DNA from: Methanosarcina acetivorans C2A
Lineage (GTDB): Archaea > Halobacteriota > Methanosarcinia > Methanosarcinales > Methanosarcinaceae
DNA: 64,000 nucleotides
Assembly (NCBI RefSeq): GCF_000007345.1
Contig: NC_003552.1
Span: 2,418,001-2,482,000 of the forward strand
Reading direction: 5' to 3'
In this document: one piece after another, positions 32,366 through 41,448 of the stretch
Layout: every line of letters starts with the position of its first letter
How positions within the stretch are numbered: position 1 is the first letter of the stretch
The notes under the pieces: generated by a model
Told to the model about the DNA's origin: nothing
Seen by the model: the letters and a program-made list of their open reading frames with translations, nothing else
The model's database searches: none
Made by a program: the position numbers and the translations under genes

Positions 32366-34042
32366 ATGTTAAAGCCTGACGAAATTCCTGAAATTCCCGG
32401 AAGTGGAGGGGTCAATTTGAACGGAGAAGAAAAAGAAGCAGTATCATGTAACGGATTTGAAGCCCTCTATCTTGCAGCCCTTGACAGCGACGTCACCCTT
32501 ATAACAGGAGTCCCCGGATATCCTGTCACCTCCTTGATGGAACTTTTTTTGAAAACTGATAGCATCTCGACTAAAACGGACAAGGTTTCAACTAAAGCAG
32601 ATAACGCCTCAACCATCTCACGCGATTCAACCTGTGAAGCCAGATGGCTTACAAACGAGAAAGTTGCGCTCGAAATCGCACTCGGAGCATCGGTTTCAGG
32701 CAGAAGGGCTCTTGTGCTTGTAAAACACGTCGGGATGAATCTGCTCTCCGACCCCCTTATAACCTCGGTTACGCATACGACAGGTGCAGGGCTGGTAATC
32801 ATTACAGGGGACGACCCCGGCGTGAAAGGCTCTCAGAATGAGCAGGACTCCCGCTGGTACGGTAGAATAGCGGAAGTTGCAGTATTTGACCCGGTGGATC
32901 CTGATGCTGCGTACCGAGCCCTCCGGAGAGCTTACGAACTTTCGGAAGAAAGCCGAGCCCCGGTAATTCTAAGGGTAACCGCAGGCCTGGAGAAAACCGA
33001 AGGAAAAATCCTGCGCCTTCCCCCTGCTTCAGCTCCTCACCCAACTTTTAACCGTTCGATCTGGAAACTTAGGATGGTAGAAAAACACCAGCATTTTCAT
33101 TCCAAAACCTATCCGATGCTTGAAGCAGAAGCCGAAAATACCGACCTGAACGAAATCAGAGAAGGAAGGAAAAAAGGGCAAGAGGCTGAACGGATAGGAA
33201 TTATCTCCTCCGGTTTTGCGGCTTCATTCGTGGAAGACACATTGAAAAAAATGGATCGTCTCCCTGAAGTTTCCCATCTTGTGCTCAACCTTGTAAATCC
33301 CCTTCCCCTGCAGAAAATCGAGAATTTCCTTAAAAATAAACGCAGGGTGCTGATAGCGGAAGAGTCAGAACCCTTCATAGAAGAACAAATTCGGATTGCA
33401 GGCAATGTCTGCGGCAAAAAAACAGGGCATCTACCCTACGGGCAAATAACACCAGAAGATATCTCTTTTGCCCTTGAGCACATTGAAGAAGAAACACCCT
33501 CAGTCTCCGTGGATTCTGTCCGCGCCGGTGACAGGAAAAAAGACAGGGCTTCCATCTGTGATGACTGTCCCTATCTTCCTCTTTACCGCTTTCTCCGCAT
33601 ACCCGATGTTCAAATCGCCGGCGACATGGGCTGTTCGGTCCGGAGCGCTCCAGAACCCCTTGCTGCAGTTGATGTAAGCTTTGCCCTCGGCTCGGCAATC
33701 TCGGTTGCCTGCGGCTTTGAGAAGAAAGGCATAGCCGTAATAGGAGACTTTGCCCTCGCACATTCCGGAATCTTAGGGCTCTTAAACGCTGCAAACGAAG
33801 GTTATGAAGTGCTTGTGCTTGTACTCCAGAACGAAGTCGCAGCCATGACAGGTGGGCAGAAAGTCCCTGACCTACAAAAAATGGTCGAAGCAATAGTGCC
33901 TGATGTGTCATTTTTTGATCTGGAGAGAGACGAAGAAAAAAAGCCTGGCCCCGGTTCAGAGCTTTCGGACCTGATCCTGAAAAAACTTGCTCTTCCGGGA
34001 ATTTCAGTTATTTTCATAAAATGCCGATGCATAAAATATTGA
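32366..34042 (+). CDS. IorA-like thiamine diphosphate oxidoreductase subunit
   Basis: 558 residues, resembling the alpha subunit of indolepyruvate:ferredoxin oxidoreductase but without the carboxy-terminal double ferredoxin domain. The pyrimidine-binding part has LITGVPGYPVTSLMEL, EVALEIALGASVSGRRALVLVKHVGMN and ITGDDPGVKGSQNEQDSRWYG. After an IorA-type middle (LAEESEP-like), the TPP part has ICDDCPYLPLYRFL, GDMGCSVRSAPEPLAAVDVSFALGSAISVACG and GDFALAHSGILGLLNAANEG. The CDDCPY pair and GDMGC are conserved in type. A lineage-specific 7-residue repeat (DSISTKT/DKVSTKA/DNASTIS) interrupts the amino domain. No IorB is adjacent; it sits 55 bases after methanogenesis marker 11. The substrate and electron acceptor are unknown. 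Confidence 0.8.
   Translation: MLKPDEIPEIPGSGGVNLNGEEKEAVSCNGFEALYLAALDSDVTLITGVPGYPVTSLMELFLKTDSISTKTDKVSTKADNASTISRDSTCEARWLTNEKVALEIALGASVSGRRALVLVKHVGMNLLSDPLITSVTHTTGAGLVIITGDDPGVKGSQNEQDSRWYGRIAEVAVFDPVDPDAAYRALRRAYELSEESRAPVILRVTAGLEKTEGKILRLPPASAPHPTFNRSIWKLRMVEKHQHFHSKTYPMLEAEAENTDLNEIREGRKKGQEAERIGIISSGFAASFVEDTLKKMDRLPEVSHLVLNLVNPLPLQKIENFLKNKRRVLIAEESEPFIEEQIRIAGNVCGKKTGHLPYGQITPEDISFALEHIEEETPSVSVDSVRAGDRKKDRASICDDCPYLPLYRFLRIPDVQIAGDMGCSVRSAPEPLAAVDVSFALGSAISVACGFEKKGIAVIGDFALAHSGILGLLNAANEGYEVLVLVLQNEVAAMTGGQKVPDLQKMVEAIVPDVSFFDLERDEEKKPGPGSELSDLILKKLALPGISVIFIKCRCIKY
32558..32620 (+). repeat. In-frame 21-bp minisatellite in the IorA-like gene
   Basis: Three 21-base units (from 32558, 32579 and 32600) encode Asp-x-x-Ser-Thr-x-x heptads inside the amino-terminal TPP domain, between MELFLKT and CEARWLTNEK, which are adjacent in relatives of the family. 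The repeat is hydrophilic and would form a surface loop. Confidence 0.8.
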
Positions 34043-34069
34043 GGCATTTGGCGGCTCTTTGTCGGGTAA

Positions 34070-35014
34070 GTCGGGAGGATTACTCCTCCTTTCTCCCCCA
34101 GGAACCGTACGTGAAAGTTTCCCTTCATACGGCTCGAGTGTTTTCAAACCCTTTCTGTATCAGGCATCAGTTATTTGCATAACTGATTTTGTGATCCCGG
34201 ATAACAGCCCATTAACATTACTGTCTGTACGCCTCTCACCTACTGGTGTCTTTGAGTATCTTACATTCGTGAGTTTGTTTCCGTTCACACAAGAAAACAC
34301 TATCAGTAAGTCAGCATCTTTTCAGATTAGGGCAAAGTTTGAACCCCTATTCAATCCATTACAGATTGACATTCATGCGTCTTCGGTTGAGTGAGGAATC
34401 GTGATAAATTGCCTCCATTCTCACAACAATTGTCAATAATTTTAATGTGTTGTGGACTGGAACTGGATATCGATTTCATGTAATAAAGCCAAAATTTAAG
34501 GCAGCCTTTTGGTGCAAAATCGATAGCTTTCAGGCAAGAAAACTCCTTAACCGATGACCAATGGATTGACATTCGTTTTTTACTGAATCCTTTACCCTCT
34601 TTGTCATTCTTGCTCCTTACGAAGTTCCTACCCTCTTAAAGGGGACAAATAGAGCTTACCAAGTTTTATGTCATGAATAATTATGGGTTCTTTAGGGACC
34701 ATCTATAAGCCGGAAACCGTTTGTCCATTTGATTTAACATCACGCCAGCTGTTAAAGCCTGATTTCGTACCATTTTGGTTCAAGCGTATCAATCCAATTT
34801 CGCTTGTTGTACTTCACGACTTTTACAATGGTTAACTTTACGTTTCCCATGGAGCCCTTACCCTAGCAAGTTATCTGAACTGGATTTTCAGAGGTTCTCA
34901 CATTGTCCCAGAAGCTTTGCACCCCATCATTACTAATGACGCACATTCTGGTAGGGTTACCCCAAATGGAAAGGGCAGCATCTTAGCAATTCATGACATA
35001 ACATCTTGTCGCAC
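34070..35014 (-). mobile_element. Group II intron, ORF-less or with a decayed maturase
   Basis: On the minus strand, domain V is at 34135-34102: exactly 34 bases, from GAGCCGTATGAAGGG to CACGTACGGTTC, the canonical catalytic hairpin with the GAAA-type loop region. It is followed by CTGGGGGAGAAAGG and a domain VI hairpin GGAGGAGTAATCCTCC (34087-34072) with an unpaired A for branching; the 3' end is likely the AC at 34071-34070. The 5' end matches GUGYG, GTGCGACAAGATG from 35014. Total about 945 bases, too short for a 1.5-kb maturase. A frame at about 34614-34540 (MTKRVKDSVKNECQSIGHRL) and an overlapping one (SIHWSSVKEFSCLKA) may be frameshifted remains of the maturase amino end. It lies 28 bases after the end of the IorA-like gene, antisense to it. 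Confidence 0.8.
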
Positions 35015-35076
35015 GCCATGAAAGTACTTTTAATTACTTTCATTATTTGTGCCCGTAATTCAAAATTGACGTGAGT

Positions 35077-35118
35077 TTTTTAATCTCTTCGTTTTAATCT
35101 CTTCGTTTTAATCTCTTC
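35077..35118. repeat. 14-bp tandem repeat
   Basis: Three units of TTTTTAATCTCTTC/GTTTTAATCTCTTC between the intron and the composite element. Confidence 0.9.
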
Positions 35119-35129
35119 TTCCATTTTTA

Positions 35130-35400
35130 GGAAAGGCCGCTCTCCTGCGTCGAGCGGGACAGGAACAACCCAGTACAGCGAGTAAGGTCGTATTGGACAG
35201 AAATTATAATTCAGCCATCTTGAACGAAGCTAACTGTTATAACCTATAAATCGTCTGCTTGAGCTCAGATCACTTCTTAACCCATAAATCGTCTGCTTGA
35301 GCGAATCTCCCGATTTTTATCTGCAAATTAGTCTGCTTGAGCGGAGCGAAACAGACCGCGTACTCCCGAGGCGCAACTCGGGCGGCAAAACTCTACATCG
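35130..35400 (-). repeat. Composite dispersed element, copy 3 (truncated at the intron)
   Basis: CCGCTC (35137-35142)/GAGCGG (35152-35157) with loop TCCTGCGTC is the same hairpin as at 10875, in reverse. Further right are GTCTG (35331-35335)/CAGAC (35352-35356) around CTTGAGCGGAGCGAAA, and CCCGA (35365-35369)/TCGGG (35378-35382). Two partial TCGTCTGCTTGAG copies lie at 35251 and 35290. The CAAGCCGGCGG box expected about 160 bases left of 35137 is absent; the group II intron begins there. Confidence 0.7.
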
Positions 35401-36308
35401 GAATCTCGCCGCACCCGGCTACCCAACAGAAATGACTTCAGTAGTTCAAAGACTCATGCAGCCGATGAGCCTTGTGCTGCTGTTTTCTCAGTGAAACTCC
35501 GCAAGCTCTGTGTCTATAACAATCATATAGCCTTTTTATGCCTGTACCCGGGAATCTACAAATAACTGGTTATATTGATTTGTCTCAGAATATGAGATTT
35601 TTAATGAACCTTTTAGATATTTAATACGTTATTTGCACTTATAGTGAGAATAAAAAGTTTAAAAATAATTATTTTTTGATATAAATCCTCTTAAGCTCTT
35701 TTTACCTGGAAACAAAAATATGTCTCAGGGGAGAAAATTCCTTCACCAATGACCAAATAAGAATACCTGGAAGAATCGATAGTGAGGACGAATTATTATA
35801 TCTGATCTGAAAAAACAAACACCACCTCTATGTTCTATAAAATATGAAGAAACTTGTTTGTGCCTGAGATATTCAATAATTCACTCTCAAAATTTAAATT
35901 TTAAGGGGTCTTGCGGGCATTAAATAGAATATTTAAGGATATAAATCGACTTAAAAACTTGAAAACTTTTATTTTATTAATTAAATCCTTCAAAACTCTT
36001 ATTTTATTAATTAAACCTTTTTAGGCTGGGATTTATTATAAGTATATTTATATTTAATCTGCTCAATTTTAGAATTGTCAAGCCGCAGACAGGCGGTAAG
36101 ACAAAAAGTTAGTTTCAAACCGGCAGTAGCCGGAAAACGATTTGATACACAGATACACAAAAACCGAAAAACAATTTGATACACAAAACCGATGGTTTCA
36201 GAAAGTCTGGGTTTCAGAAAGTCTGGAAGTCTGGAGGAATTATCGGTATTTATTAGGTGTAGAAATATATTGTTTAAATAAATACTGGGAGTGGGTAAAG
36301 TCTTGAAA
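35401..36308. other. AT-rich region upstream of the secreted-protein pair
   Basis: Long AT-rich DNA with duplicated pieces (AACTTTTATTTTATTAATTAAA near 35963 and a similar piece near 35994; CAAACCGATGG and TTTGATACACA near 36140-36190; CAGAAAGTCTGG repeated near 36208-36230). TATA-like AAGTATATTTATATTTAAT is near 36040-36058. No gene was found. Confidence 0.5.
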
Positions 36309-36617
36309 ATGAAAAAGATAATTGGTATTTTTTTAGCAGTTTGTTTTGTATTGTCAGTAACTGCTGCAGCAGCAAGCGCAGGAGGATCTGGTTACAAAGG
36401 ATATGACAAGAAAGGGGATAATTACAAGAAATATGATTATAAAGACGGAAAGAAGCATAAAGAATATAAGAAAAGCTGGGTGAAAGGTCACTCTGAGAAG
36501 AGAAAAGTAGGGTACTACCAGAAGAAGTGGACTGGATATAAGTACATACAAGTTATATACTACAAGATAATCATGGTGTGGATACCTGGCTTCTGGTCCT
36601 GGGGCTGGTTCTGGTAA
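36309..36617 (+). CDS. Small secreted Lys/Tyr-rich protein with W-x-P-G-x-W ending
   Basis: 102 residues. A signal peptide MKKIIGIFLAVCFVLSVTAA is followed by AASA, the likely cleavage site. The mature part is rich in Lys, Tyr and Gly (GYKGYDKKGDNYKKYDYKDG) and ends in IIMVWIPGFWSWGWFW. The start could also be the TTG two codons upstream or the GTG at 36291; GGGAG precedes all of them at unequal distances. The next gene at 36837 has a nearly identical signal peptide and upstream sequence. The W-(V/I)-P-G-x-(W/Y) motif is that of WxxGxW-repeat surface proteins; binding partner unknown. Confidence 0.75.
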   Translation: MKKIIGIFLAVCFVLSVTAAAASAGGSGYKGYDKKGDNYKKYDYKDGKKHKEYKKSWVKGHSEKRKVGYYQKKWTGYKYIQVIYYKIIMVWIPGFWSWGWFW

Positions 36618-36836
36618 CTACAACAAGTTAGCTAACTAAAATACCGAACCACAAGCTTGAGTACAATCCATGACGGTAACACCTGATGAGATAGGAATTT
36701 ACCAGTTAAGGTTTACCAGTTAAACTACTGCGTAAGTCCTAACTCATTCTGACTTTTTCCAAAGTTCTGACTTTTTTTAAAGATAACTTTTACAATCGTT
36801 TTGGGAATAGTTTTGGGAGTGGATCAAAGCTTGAAA

Positions 36837-37184
36837 ATGAAAAAGATAATTGGTATCTTTCTAGCAGTTTGCTTTGTACTATCAGTAACCGCTGCAGCAG
36901 CAAGCGCGGGGGGAGCTGATCAAAATAAGTACAGGGATAAGAAAATCATCAACGATGGTAGCGCCAAATCTCTGAAAAATGATAAAGGTAAGAACATACA
37001 CAGCTGGAAACAGAAATTTTGGATATGGGTATGGGTTCCCGGCCACTATGAGTTTAAAGTAATAAAGACGGATAGTTACGACAAGCATCACCACGGAACA
37101 GCAACCAAAAAGGTAATCAGAATATGGGTTCCCGGTCACTGGGAATTGAAACTCTTAAAATTTAACCATGGAATCTTTAGCTAA
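36837..37184 (+). CDS. Small secreted protein with three W-V-P-G-H motifs (tandem paralog)
   Basis: 115 residues. The signal peptide is the same as in the previous gene (MKKIIGIFLAVCFVLSVTAA), almost base for base, but the mature part differs: a hydrophilic segment, then FWIWVWVPGHYEFKVIKTD and, after a His-rich loop (DKHHHGTATKK), VIRIWVPGHWELKLLKF. Upstream TTTTGGGAGTGGATCAAAGC matches that of its neighbour. The repeated aromatic motif suggests a wall- or polymer-binding surface protein (inference). Confidence 0.75.
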   Translation: MKKIIGIFLAVCFVLSVTAAAASAGGADQNKYRDKKIINDGSAKSLKNDKGKNIHSWKQKFWIWVWVPGHYEFKVIKTDSYDKHHHGTATKKVIRIWVPGHWELKLLKFNHGIFS

Positions 37185-39741: not shown

Positions 39742-41448
39742 CAGGCTGTCTCAAAACCATTCCTTATTCTACAATTGGGTAATATCCCATCTCAATTTTT
39801 ATTTCATTTCGACAAGAATAGATTAATTTTCACTGATCACCATAACTTATGCGCCATTCCTGCTACACTTCCCCATCTATTCCCACATTCATTTCCTCTT
39901 CTAGTAATCATATTCAGAATTTCTTTCAGGTTTTTACCTTCCCTCTTCATGAAATCCGCTATTTTCCTTATGTTGTGTACGGTACACATCATAACAAATT
40001 CAATTTTTGTCTTTCCTTTCCCTCTCAACAGAAATTCCCTGAATCCTCTATCCTGTTTCATCTGACCAAACACAGGTTCTACGGTAGACATTCTTTTCTG
40101 ATACTTTTCCGTACCCTTTTCTGTATTCAGTTTAGCCCTCATATCCTCCATTAAATGTTCTCGAGGATCTCTTGTTATTGTCCTTTTTCCACTCATAGTA
40201 CATGCATTTTTCAACACACACTTAGAACAATAGCTACATACATAATATCTTAAATCAGGTTCACCTTTCCTCTTTTGTATTCTTATAAAGGGAATTTCAA
40301 ATGCAGCAGGACAATAATAGCAGTCCTTTTCTTCATCGTATTTAAAAAGAGCTTTCCTGAACTTCCTGGTTTTTCCTTCTTTTTCAGCTTTATAGAAGTT
40401 GTCGGGAATATAAGCATCAATTTCTTCATTGAGTAAAAATTCTACATTATCGTATGAGAAATAACCTGCATCTGCAAGCACTATTGTTGGTTTATCCCCC
40501 AGTGTATTTTTTACATTCTGTATCATTGGTTCCATCTGATGCAAGTCGTTTTCTTCGTTGACCACGTCTGCTGCAACGATTATTTGTTCCTTTTCATCAA
40601 CAGCAACCTGACAATTATAGGAAGGTTTCTTGCTTCCATCTTTATGCTTCATAATTCGAGCATCGTTGTCTGTAATGTTTACTTTTTTCAGCTTTTCTTC
40701 ATCGAGCTTTTTCTTAGCAGCCTTAATTTTCTCTAATCTTTTCTTCTTGTCAACCAGTTCTTCTGGAATCTGGTAAGGTGTCGAGTCACCGTAAATTTCA
40801 TCTTCATGTTTATCGGTTTCAATGCTCTCTTTGAGTATCTTGTCAATTTCTTTTTCGAGAGCATCCGAGCTCTTGCTTTGTCTTGGAGAAGCGTTTGCCT
40901 TAACCTTTGTTCCGTCAATTGAGATACTGGAACCAATCAGATCCATTTCTTTGCAAAACGTGACAACCTGAGAAAAGATTTCTTTAATGGGGCCAAGATG
41001 AGTTGAACGGAAGCGACATATTGTGTGGAAATCAGGTTTTTGCATGGCTGCAAGGTACATAAAAGCAGTATCAGTTTGGGTCATTTGCTCTATCTTACGT
41101 GAGCTTCTGATGTTTATCAGGTATCCATAAAGTAAGATTTTTAAAAGAAGTCGTGGATGATAGGCAGGGCAGCCTTCCTCAGAATAAGTGGATTCAATAG
41201 CACTAATATCGATGACGTCTATGATGTCGTTTAGCACTCTGGCAATATGGTTTTCAGGAACAAACTCTTCCAGGTTAAATGGAAGTAAAAATTGCTGCTT
41301 TTGATCATACCTTTTGAACATGGTGAGACACTGGGGGTAATTTTCTCAAACAATATATTTTTAATATAAAGATATATATTTAAAAAGATAAATGTTCCTA
41401 ATAATTCTTACCCAAATGTACAATCAAGCATAGTTTTGAGACAGCCTG
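39742..41448 (-). mobile_element. Complete IS1182-family insertion sequence
   Basis: A 1707-bp element bounded by perfect 16-bp inverted repeats: CAGGCTGTCTCAAAAC at 39742-39757 and GTTTTGAGACAGCCTG at 41433-41448. It is flanked by a 4-bp duplication TTAT (39738-39741 and 41449-41452). It carries one full-length transposase on the minus strand. Intact ends, duplication and frame point to a recent, probably active copy. Confidence 0.92.
39837..41321 (-). CDS. IS1182-family transposase
   Basis: 494 residues, a DDE transposase with the IS4/IS5-like fold. The amino domain MFKRYDQKQQFLLPFNLEEFVPENH, with AYHPRLLLKILLYGYL and SSRKIEQMTQTD, is typical. The catalytic aspartates are expected in SISIDGTKVKANAS and VLADAGYFSYDN, the glutamate in RMSTVEPVFGQMKQDRGFREF. 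A Cys cluster (YVCSYCSKCVLKNAC) lies between, as in the family. The ATG is 112 bases from the right end. Confidence 0.95.
   Translation of the reverse strand: MFKRYDQKQQFLLPFNLEEFVPENHIARVLNDIIDVIDISAIESTYSEEGCPAYHPRLLLKILLYGYLINIRSSRKIEQMTQTDTAFMYLAAMQKPDFHTICRFRSTHLGPIKEIFSQVVTFCKEMDLIGSSISIDGTKVKANASPRQSKSSDALEKEIDKILKESIETDKHEDEIYGDSTPYQIPEELVDKKKRLEKIKAAKKKLDEEKLKKVNITDNDARIMKHKDGSKKPSYNCQVAVDEKEQIIVAADVVNEENDLHQMEPMIQNVKNTLGDKPTIVLADAGYFSYDNVEFLLNEEIDAYIPDNFYKAEKEGKTRKFRKALFKYDEEKDCYYCPAAFEIPFIRIQKRKGEPDLRYYVCSYCSKCVLKNACTMSGKRTITRDPREHLMEDMRAKLNTEKGTEKYQKRMSTVEPVFGQMKQDRGFREFLLRGKGKTKIEFVMMCTVHNIRKIADFMKREGKNLKEILNMITRRGNECGNRWGSVAGMAHKLW

Follow-up and report, generated by a model that had tools for sequence, protein, structure and literature searches.

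Just behind an iorA-like gene of Methanosarcina acetivorans C2A lies an antisense stretch of DNA that resembles a short group II intron, and the question raised by this locus is how an intron that encodes no maturase came to stand there and whether it is mobilised in trans or dying. The window analysed, i.e., the whole stretch of 64,000 nucleotides, corresponds to bases 2,418,001-2,482,000 of a single contig, and positions are those of the window unless a genome position is named. We find that 34061-35014 on the minus strand is a complete ORF-less group II intron of 954 nt. The original prediction, a short group II intron without maturase covering 945 bases at 34070-35014, was right about the nature of the element and its 5' end and placed the 3' end nine bases short: the length is 954 and not 945 nt because the related copies share a 3' end at 34061. 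The intron and its parts are as follows.

34061-35014, minus strand: ORF-less group II intron (Rfam; ends shared in 11 copies; empty sites in relatives)
34660-35008, minus strand: domain I, intron nt 7-355 (consensus folds and RF02012 match)
34594-34655, minus strand: domain II, intron nt 360-421 (folds; putative recombination breakpoints here or just upstream)
34303-34586, minus strand: domain III, intron nt 429-512, split by a MITE (folds)
34137-34301, minus strand: domain IV, shrunk by deletion of the maturase gene (one fold and comparison with maturase-encoding introns)
34102-34135, minus strand: domain V, 34 nt (RF04357 match; RF00029)
34063-34098, minus strand: domain VI, with the candidate branch-point A at 34067 (Rfam and folds)
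35015/34060, minus strand: predicted exon junction of the window copy, ...TTTCATGGC/AAAGAG...

Two Rfam models match the minus strand: RF00029 (domain V/VI; gathering score 40) at 34061-34137 with 61.7 bits, and RF02012 (domain I region) at 34894-34977 with 60.2 bits. With E-values of 1.1e-9 and 6.6e-10, both matches stand far above chance. The 34-nt domain V that had been expected on this strand was located at 34102-34135, and the bulged A proposed for domain VI corresponds to A 34067, unpaired in both consensus folds. The intron begins with GTGCGACAAG at 35014 and ends with ACCCGAC at 34061. We mapped both ends of at least 11 ORF-less copies in at least 8 of 30 Methanosarcina genomes, three of them in M. 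acetivorans, where the two besides the window copy lie at 3666 kb and 4841 kb and are free of the MITE; an additional copy of genome G001, whose 5' end was not found, stands outside the 11, and the censuses of introns and of the 66-nt repeat described below, in which the best candidates per genome were scored, are lower bounds. All 11 mapped copies have GTGCG...AC ends (a GUGYG-type 5' end, as had been read from the sequence, and 3' AY), GUGCG being identical throughout; at the 3' end, G024 has ACCCAAC, G004 has ACTCGAC and the other mapped copies have ACCCGAC. The folding of domains I-IV, named beforehand as the refuting test, succeeded, with covariation. The consensus fold of domains I-VI, obtained from nine relatives with the window copy excluded, contains 234 pairs, 46 of them doubly changed in at least one sequence. 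A second fold, which included the window copy minus its MITE, gave the same domains I, II, III, V and VI, the pairing of domain IV being the point where the two disagree. Domains III and IV give little covariation evidence because they vary little; the support for domains I and II is strong. The window intron encodes no reverse transcriptase/maturase, a 42-codon remnant excepted, and its 954 nt consist of 754 nt of intron plus 200 nt, i.e., a 190-bp MITE and its duplicated 10-bp target. A dispersed MITE makes up a fifth of the interval, and one could ask whether a MITE-like or other repeat was mistaken for an intron through chance motifs; the Rfam E-values, the covarying structure, the shared ends and the empty sites refute this, leaving it practically no chance of being true.

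Neither the transposon insert nor the mosaic origin described below figured in the original prediction. The insert and its flanks are the following.

34374-34563, minus strand: MITE of 190 bp with imperfect terminal inverted repeats, CATTGG...CGCATG in minus-strand reading (35 full-length copies compared)
34564-34573, minus strand: target site duplication AATGTCAATC, first copy (MITE flank comparison)
34364-34373, minus strand: target site duplication AATGTCAATC, second copy (restores the 5' arm of a domain III hairpin)

In a whole-genome search with the interval, query bases 6-457 and 647-960 matched two other loci that lack the middle, and query bases 458-649 matched more than 30 dispersed places. 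AATGTCAATC stands on both sides of the insert, and 11 bases match across the flanks. The 10-bp duplication is perfect in 27 of the 35 full-length MITE copies and nearly perfect in 3 more (the MITE table covers 36 places, the 36th being a deleted copy, L178). An 18-nt pattern of the MITE ends gave 32 + 36 matches, and its reversed control gave 0 + 0. One pair of MITE-type ends lies 1,476 bp apart, at 3570880-3572355 of the window's own genome (G000), and the element between them encodes an IS4-family DDE transposase (NF033592, 192 bits). This element and the MITE share the outer 24 and 18 nt only, and no clear 10-bp duplication was found at its own flanks; judged by the common ends, it is a candidate source of transposase and a putative parent of the MITE. 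Thus, dispersed copies with duplications, together with ends shared with a transposase-encoding element, define the insert as a non-autonomous MITE of IS4 type, and its interpretation as a maturase scrap or an intron subdomain is ruled out by its being a dispersed element with target duplications. It sits in domain III, directly before a hairpin. The 5' arm of this hairpin belongs to the duplicated target, and one complete arm is retained as a result. The MITE RNA is itself predicted to close on its end repeats (-47.7 kcal/mol, z -3.28).

The same MITE is found in domain III of a maturase-encoding intron starting at genome position 5711732, some 25 nt away from where it stands in the window copy and with the target duplication ATAGGGGTTC. 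In genome G029 (2796000-2800500), the 3' part of an ORF-less intron stands without domain I, and a MITE (2798165) abuts the start of domain II. From these two cases and the window copy, we do not claim that MITEs are enriched in introns.

The exon-binding sites bear on how the intron found its target. The pairing elements are the following.

34740-34746, minus strand: EBS1, GGCGTGA (by-eye choice from exon pairing, supported by covariation)
34809-34813, minus strand: EBS2, AGTAC (by-eye choice from exon pairing, supported by covariation)
35015-35021, minus strand: IBS1, TCATGGC (with EBS1, 5 Watson-Crick pairs and 1 G-U of 7)
35023-35027, minus strand: IBS2, GTACT (with EBS2, 5/5)

EBS1 consists of seven domain I bases pairing with exon positions -7 to -1 and EBS2 of five pairing with -13 to -9. 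The match to the bases before 35014 that would support the intron is therefore present, with 6/7 for EBS1 (one G-U, one mismatch) and 5/5 for EBS2. Two types of target can be distinguished. The type-A 5' exon reads ...GTACTTTCATGCC/ in the window copy, Mac4841 and G014, and more loosely in Mac3666, G024 and G004; the type-B 5' exon reads ...CCACTTTCCGCAG/ or ...CTACATTCGGCAG/ in G010, G001 and G027, with a one-base shift in G002, and the type-B target junction is TTTCCGCAG/ATGTC. For 10 introns, the mean EBS/IBS score was 9.95/12 with the intron's own exon versus 7.12 with the exons of other introns, a mean reached in 8/20,000 permutations (G001b was dropped, its EBS being identical and its domain I identical to that of G001a). 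Permutations inside each type alone were not significant (64/720 and 6/24), indicating that the signal lies mainly between types. Given this result, the poor pairing of G024 and G002 with their flanks as cut (6/12 and 5/12 Watson-Crick) and the fact that the EBS positions were selected knowing the exons, it is the covariation between types that constitutes real support. From these comparisons, target choice appears to lie in domain I, whose EBS1 and EBS2 pair and covary with the 5' exon.

The target of the window copy is a repeat that stands behind the iorA-like gene.

32366-34042, plus strand: iorA-like gene (TIGR03336, 279.7 bits, below the curated cut-off of 650.9)
35015-35076, minus strand: copy of a 66-nt genus-wide repeat, the intron target, ending at the insertion point (repeat comparison; empty sites of relatives)

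The 15-nt type-A target has 20 sites with at most 1 mismatch, versus 1 for the reversed pattern, and these sites represent a single repeated 66-nt element, which contains a 9-bp inverted repeat. The repeat is present in at least 26 of 30 Methanosarcina genomes and at no fewer than 32 further places in M. acetivorans, where it is intergenic. According to the original prediction, the 5' edge of the intron coincided with the truncation of a dispersed repeat whose missing half should lie there. A repeat is indeed there, and it is not cut by the intron: 19 other listed copies end at the same place, with ...CATGCC or a one-base variant, no missing half exists, and the intron sits at the repeat's natural end. 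Most copies continue with AAA, with which the 3' exon of the intron also starts. Behind iorA, genomes G007 and G010 have empty sites, ...TTTCATGCC/AA, where the exon reads TACTTTCATGCC and continues with /AAAG and /AACA. Since these two relatives carry the repeat without the intron, we conclude that the repeat was already in place and that the intron inserted at its natural end. Among the type-A introns, flanks match the repeat up to the junction in 5/10 (window copy, Mac4841, G014, G004 and a G009 remnant), lack it in 4/10 and are marginal in 1/10; a clear match was found in 0/9 type-B flanks, G002 being borderline (6/500 shuffles). We do not claim that the repeat always stands behind genes in one orientation: a gene 3' end faces it on at least one side at 16/18 sites with a neighbouring ORF of at least 100 aa, out of 20 sites, versus about 3/4 for random intergenic sites, the latter being a rough, uncomputed estimate.

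The intron begins 18 nt past the stop codon of the iorA-like gene, in antisense, and the gene is uninterrupted. The IorA-like protein has 558 aa, and its TIGR03336 match ends at model position 474/595; the C-terminal part of the model, which we take to be ferredoxin-like, is consequently absent from it. In several relatives, the gene region holds about 90-110 additional bases close to its 3' end. Beside the intron, 35112-35394 holds a second dispersed, partly tandem repeat set with more than 60 partial genome matches. Further on are a 112-nt direct repeat (36286-36397 and 36814-36925, 86% identical), which corresponds to the start regions of two small related secreted-protein-like ORFs, and an IS1182-family transposase gene (39837-41321, minus strand; NF033551, 460 bits).

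Possible scraps of a maturase amino end had been noticed in the intron, and a remnant resembling the amino end of intact maturases is present in domain IV.

34160-34288, minus strand: maturase amino-end remnant, VNGNKLTNVRYSKTPVGERRTDSNVNGLLSGITKSVMQITDA followed by a stop (by-eye alignment to KLLNVS..LT..LQTRITKAVLQ of intact maturases)

The ORF-less introns keep about 40 such codons with an internal gap, and lack about 1.3-1.4 kb of domain IV compared with maturase-encoding introns. The remnant is open in 8 of the 11 copies and broken in the other three (G024, G004 and G027), which rules it out as a conserved small gene. Uninterrupted maturase frames of about 500 aa are carried by type-B introns of G002, G029 and G004, located at the type-B target; that of G002 contains RVT_N, RVT_1 and GIIM (maturase domain) and matches TIGR04416 with 351 bits. 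In G002 and G004, ORF-less copies coexist with these intact related introns. Of the two fates first proposed for the intron, mobilisation in trans fits the family, given many full-length sites, EBS1 and EBS2 matched to their exons and the related intact maturases of G002 and G004. The nearest maturase gene of M. acetivorans (intron start 5711732, region 5704800-5712800) is split by nested introns, and a more distant intact frame of 515 aa lies near 4494083; a working driver in this organism would need either splicing of the nested introns or that frame. Because intact maturases occur elsewhere and the nearest one of M. acetivorans is interrupted, the family looks trans-mobilised and the window copy may be stranded. 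Two further loci show related rearrangements: G004 (2690629-2694075) contains a type-A ORF-less intron enlarged to 1,032 nt by tandem repeats within domain IV and by a partial duplication of domain III, and in G009 (573500-578200) a type-A domain I, located at the 66-nt repeat, is joined to roughly the last 60 residues of a maturase, which we read as the remnant of a maturase-encoding type-A intron.

The other proposed fate, that after losing its ORF and acquiring the MITE the window copy neither splices nor moves and persists in non-coding DNA as a dying or dead intron, is quite possible, although we do not favor it. It agrees with the MITE in domain III, the EBS1/IBS1 mismatch, the interrupted maturase gene nearest in the same genome and the fact that no host gene requires the copy to be spliced. 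Against it, this copy has kept domains V and VI, its two ends and its EBS2 pairing intact, the duplicated target rebuilds the domain III hairpin next to a MITE predicted to form a stem of its own, and the family as a whole is well conserved. The window copy keeps its six domains and may still splice.

The two target types differ in the history of domain I. Between types A and B, identity is 65-68% in domains I-II and 87-96% in domains IV-VI (for maturase introns, the domain IV-VI identities derive from some 100 nt at the beginning of the ORF and cannot be compared with these). The type-B domain I groups with those of RT_Mac5711, RT_G002a, RT_G029b and RT_G004 (clade support 100/99), and in the domain III tree nine ORF-less introns form one clade (99/98), with the type-B maturase introns apart. 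These trees are without G001b, G004 (1,032 nt, internal repeats) and the third G001 copy (5' end not found), and set A1 is without G004 and the MITE-bearing window copy. For clades named after the identity matrix had been seen, AU tests rejected monophyly of the ORF-less introns in domains I-II (p 8.1e-5) and of type B in domain III (p 1.6e-6); on a smaller set, the values were 4.9e-10 and 1.8e-4. In G010, the 100 informative sites left of the break favor RT_G002a by 97:3 and the 51 right of it favor Mac4841 by 11:40, a break value reached in 0/20,000 shuffles. Four type-B introns place the break within or close to domain II (intron nt 345-421). Such a mosaic ORF-less family, with domain I from at least two lineages and domains III-VI of one origin, is well supported by these comparisons, which also point to one of the domain I lineages as common to maturase-encoding introns.

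If domain I had simply evolved faster, both types could descend from one ORF-less ancestor without exchange, as the pressure on EBS regions to change and the contrast in identity between domains I-II and IV-VI would allow. This is highly improbable, since the order of similarity reverses along the intron (G010 and RT_G002a are 90% identical in domains I-II and 80% in domain III; Mac4841 and G002 are 68% and then 90% identical), the domain I and domain III trees conflict and a single history is rejected by the AU tests. Alternatively, each domain I type may have lost the ORF independently, and gene conversion may then have transferred the 3' half between the two ORF-less lineages. This would also yield shared domains III-VI with different domains I, and the window copy does share domain III alleles with G002 (95/95 support), indicating that the 3' part moves between copies. 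We judge two losses improbable: the same maturase remnant and the same internal deletion occur in both types, and conversion would have had to overwrite, in all copies, the whole region 3' of domain II. This scenario would still be recombination, and is not fully distinguishable from an exchange of domain I. Recombination itself rests on the conflicting trees, and its direction and route are our reading of them; the event may have been an import of domain I or a conversion of the 3' part, through either DNA recombination or a template switch by the reverse transcriptase.

Taken together, we consider it probable that a trans-mobilised family, retargeted by recombination of domain I, landed on the repeat behind iorA and then received a MITE. 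The family would spread by retrohoming, with maturase supplied in trans by related introns, and it combines at least two unrelated domain I types with one shared domain III-VI core; because two types share one core, the change of target would come from a recombined-in domain I and not from point changes in the EBS only. The domain I type of the window copy matches the 3' end of the 66-nt repeat, and the intron stands antisense just behind iorA because its target copy was already there, as the empty sites of two relatives show. An IS4-type MITE later entered domain III of this copy, the insertion being shown by the target duplication. A bolder version, tentative and rather doubtful, treats domain I as a natural targeting cassette: ORF-less archaeal introns would retain a single core for catalysis and maturase binding and acquire new domain I modules from neighbouring introns, and a single exchange would carry the entire family to a different dispersed safe-harbour repeat. 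In this version the MITE-bearing copy can still be spliced, as the MITE folds out of domain III, and a DNA transposon could thus travel on a retroelement.

The usual view is that group II introns gain new sites through small changes in their exon-binding loops. If our reading is true, swapping the targeting domain while keeping the catalytic core would be a second, faster route of retargeting, and would lend support to gene targeting by engineered swaps of domain I. A dispersed intergenic repeat as target would account for the ability of archaeal introns to multiply while leaving genes intact. The MITE-bearing copy offers a natural test of what a catalytic domain tolerates.

From M. acetivorans and M. 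mazei, group II introns both without an ORF and with an RT gene, some of the latter nested, were reported in 2003 (Dai & Zimmerly, RNA 9:14), and no archaeal ORF is interrupted by them, according to the parts available of the citing papers (PMC4424553, PMC2882425, PMC1712230). The introns described here are alike in occurring as both types, in nesting and in lying outside ORFs, and the window copy may already figure in that report or its database; the MITE insert, the 66-nt target and the domain I exchange differ in going unmentioned in the accessible text of the citing literature. In the open-access literature searched, as far as its text is available, we found no report of domain I exchange, chimeric group II introns or template switching, nor of Methanosarcina MITEs, dispersed repeats or ORF-less introns with a MITE. 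As far as these sources extend, the proposed domain I exchange in an ORF-less family appears to be new, the ORF-less introns of M. acetivorans being already known. With IS4-family MITEs, the window MITE shares its short length, terminal inverted repeats like those of the full-length IS4 element and 10-bp duplications, and differs in lying inside a ribozyme domain. The group IIA ORF-less introns of the Oedocladium chloroplast are, in the sections available (PMC5088586), similar in that related introns have spread to several sites with EBS1 and EBS2 matching their own targets; they differ in being IIA and organellar, and the marked variation described there concerns the EBS and delta motifs and not an exchange of domain I. 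The closest parallel is provided by the TeI3 introns of Thermosynechococcus elongatus (Mohr et al. 2010), which, according to the available text (PMC2882425), lost the ORF from domain IV leaving terminal remnants, have several target families with good EBS/IBS pairing, are served by driver maturases shown to act in trans, prefer other mobile elements and non-essential DNA, and include one maturase ORF broken by an insertion element. The Methanosarcina family resembles them in being ORF-less with maturase remnants, in its several targets, in its EBS/IBS pairing and in an interrupted maturase. Mobility was assayed for TeI3, whereas for the Methanosarcina family it is proposed from sequence; and, as described in that text, TeI3 introns were retargeted by divergence of the EBS, whereas in Methanosarcina the whole of domain I appears to have been exchanged.
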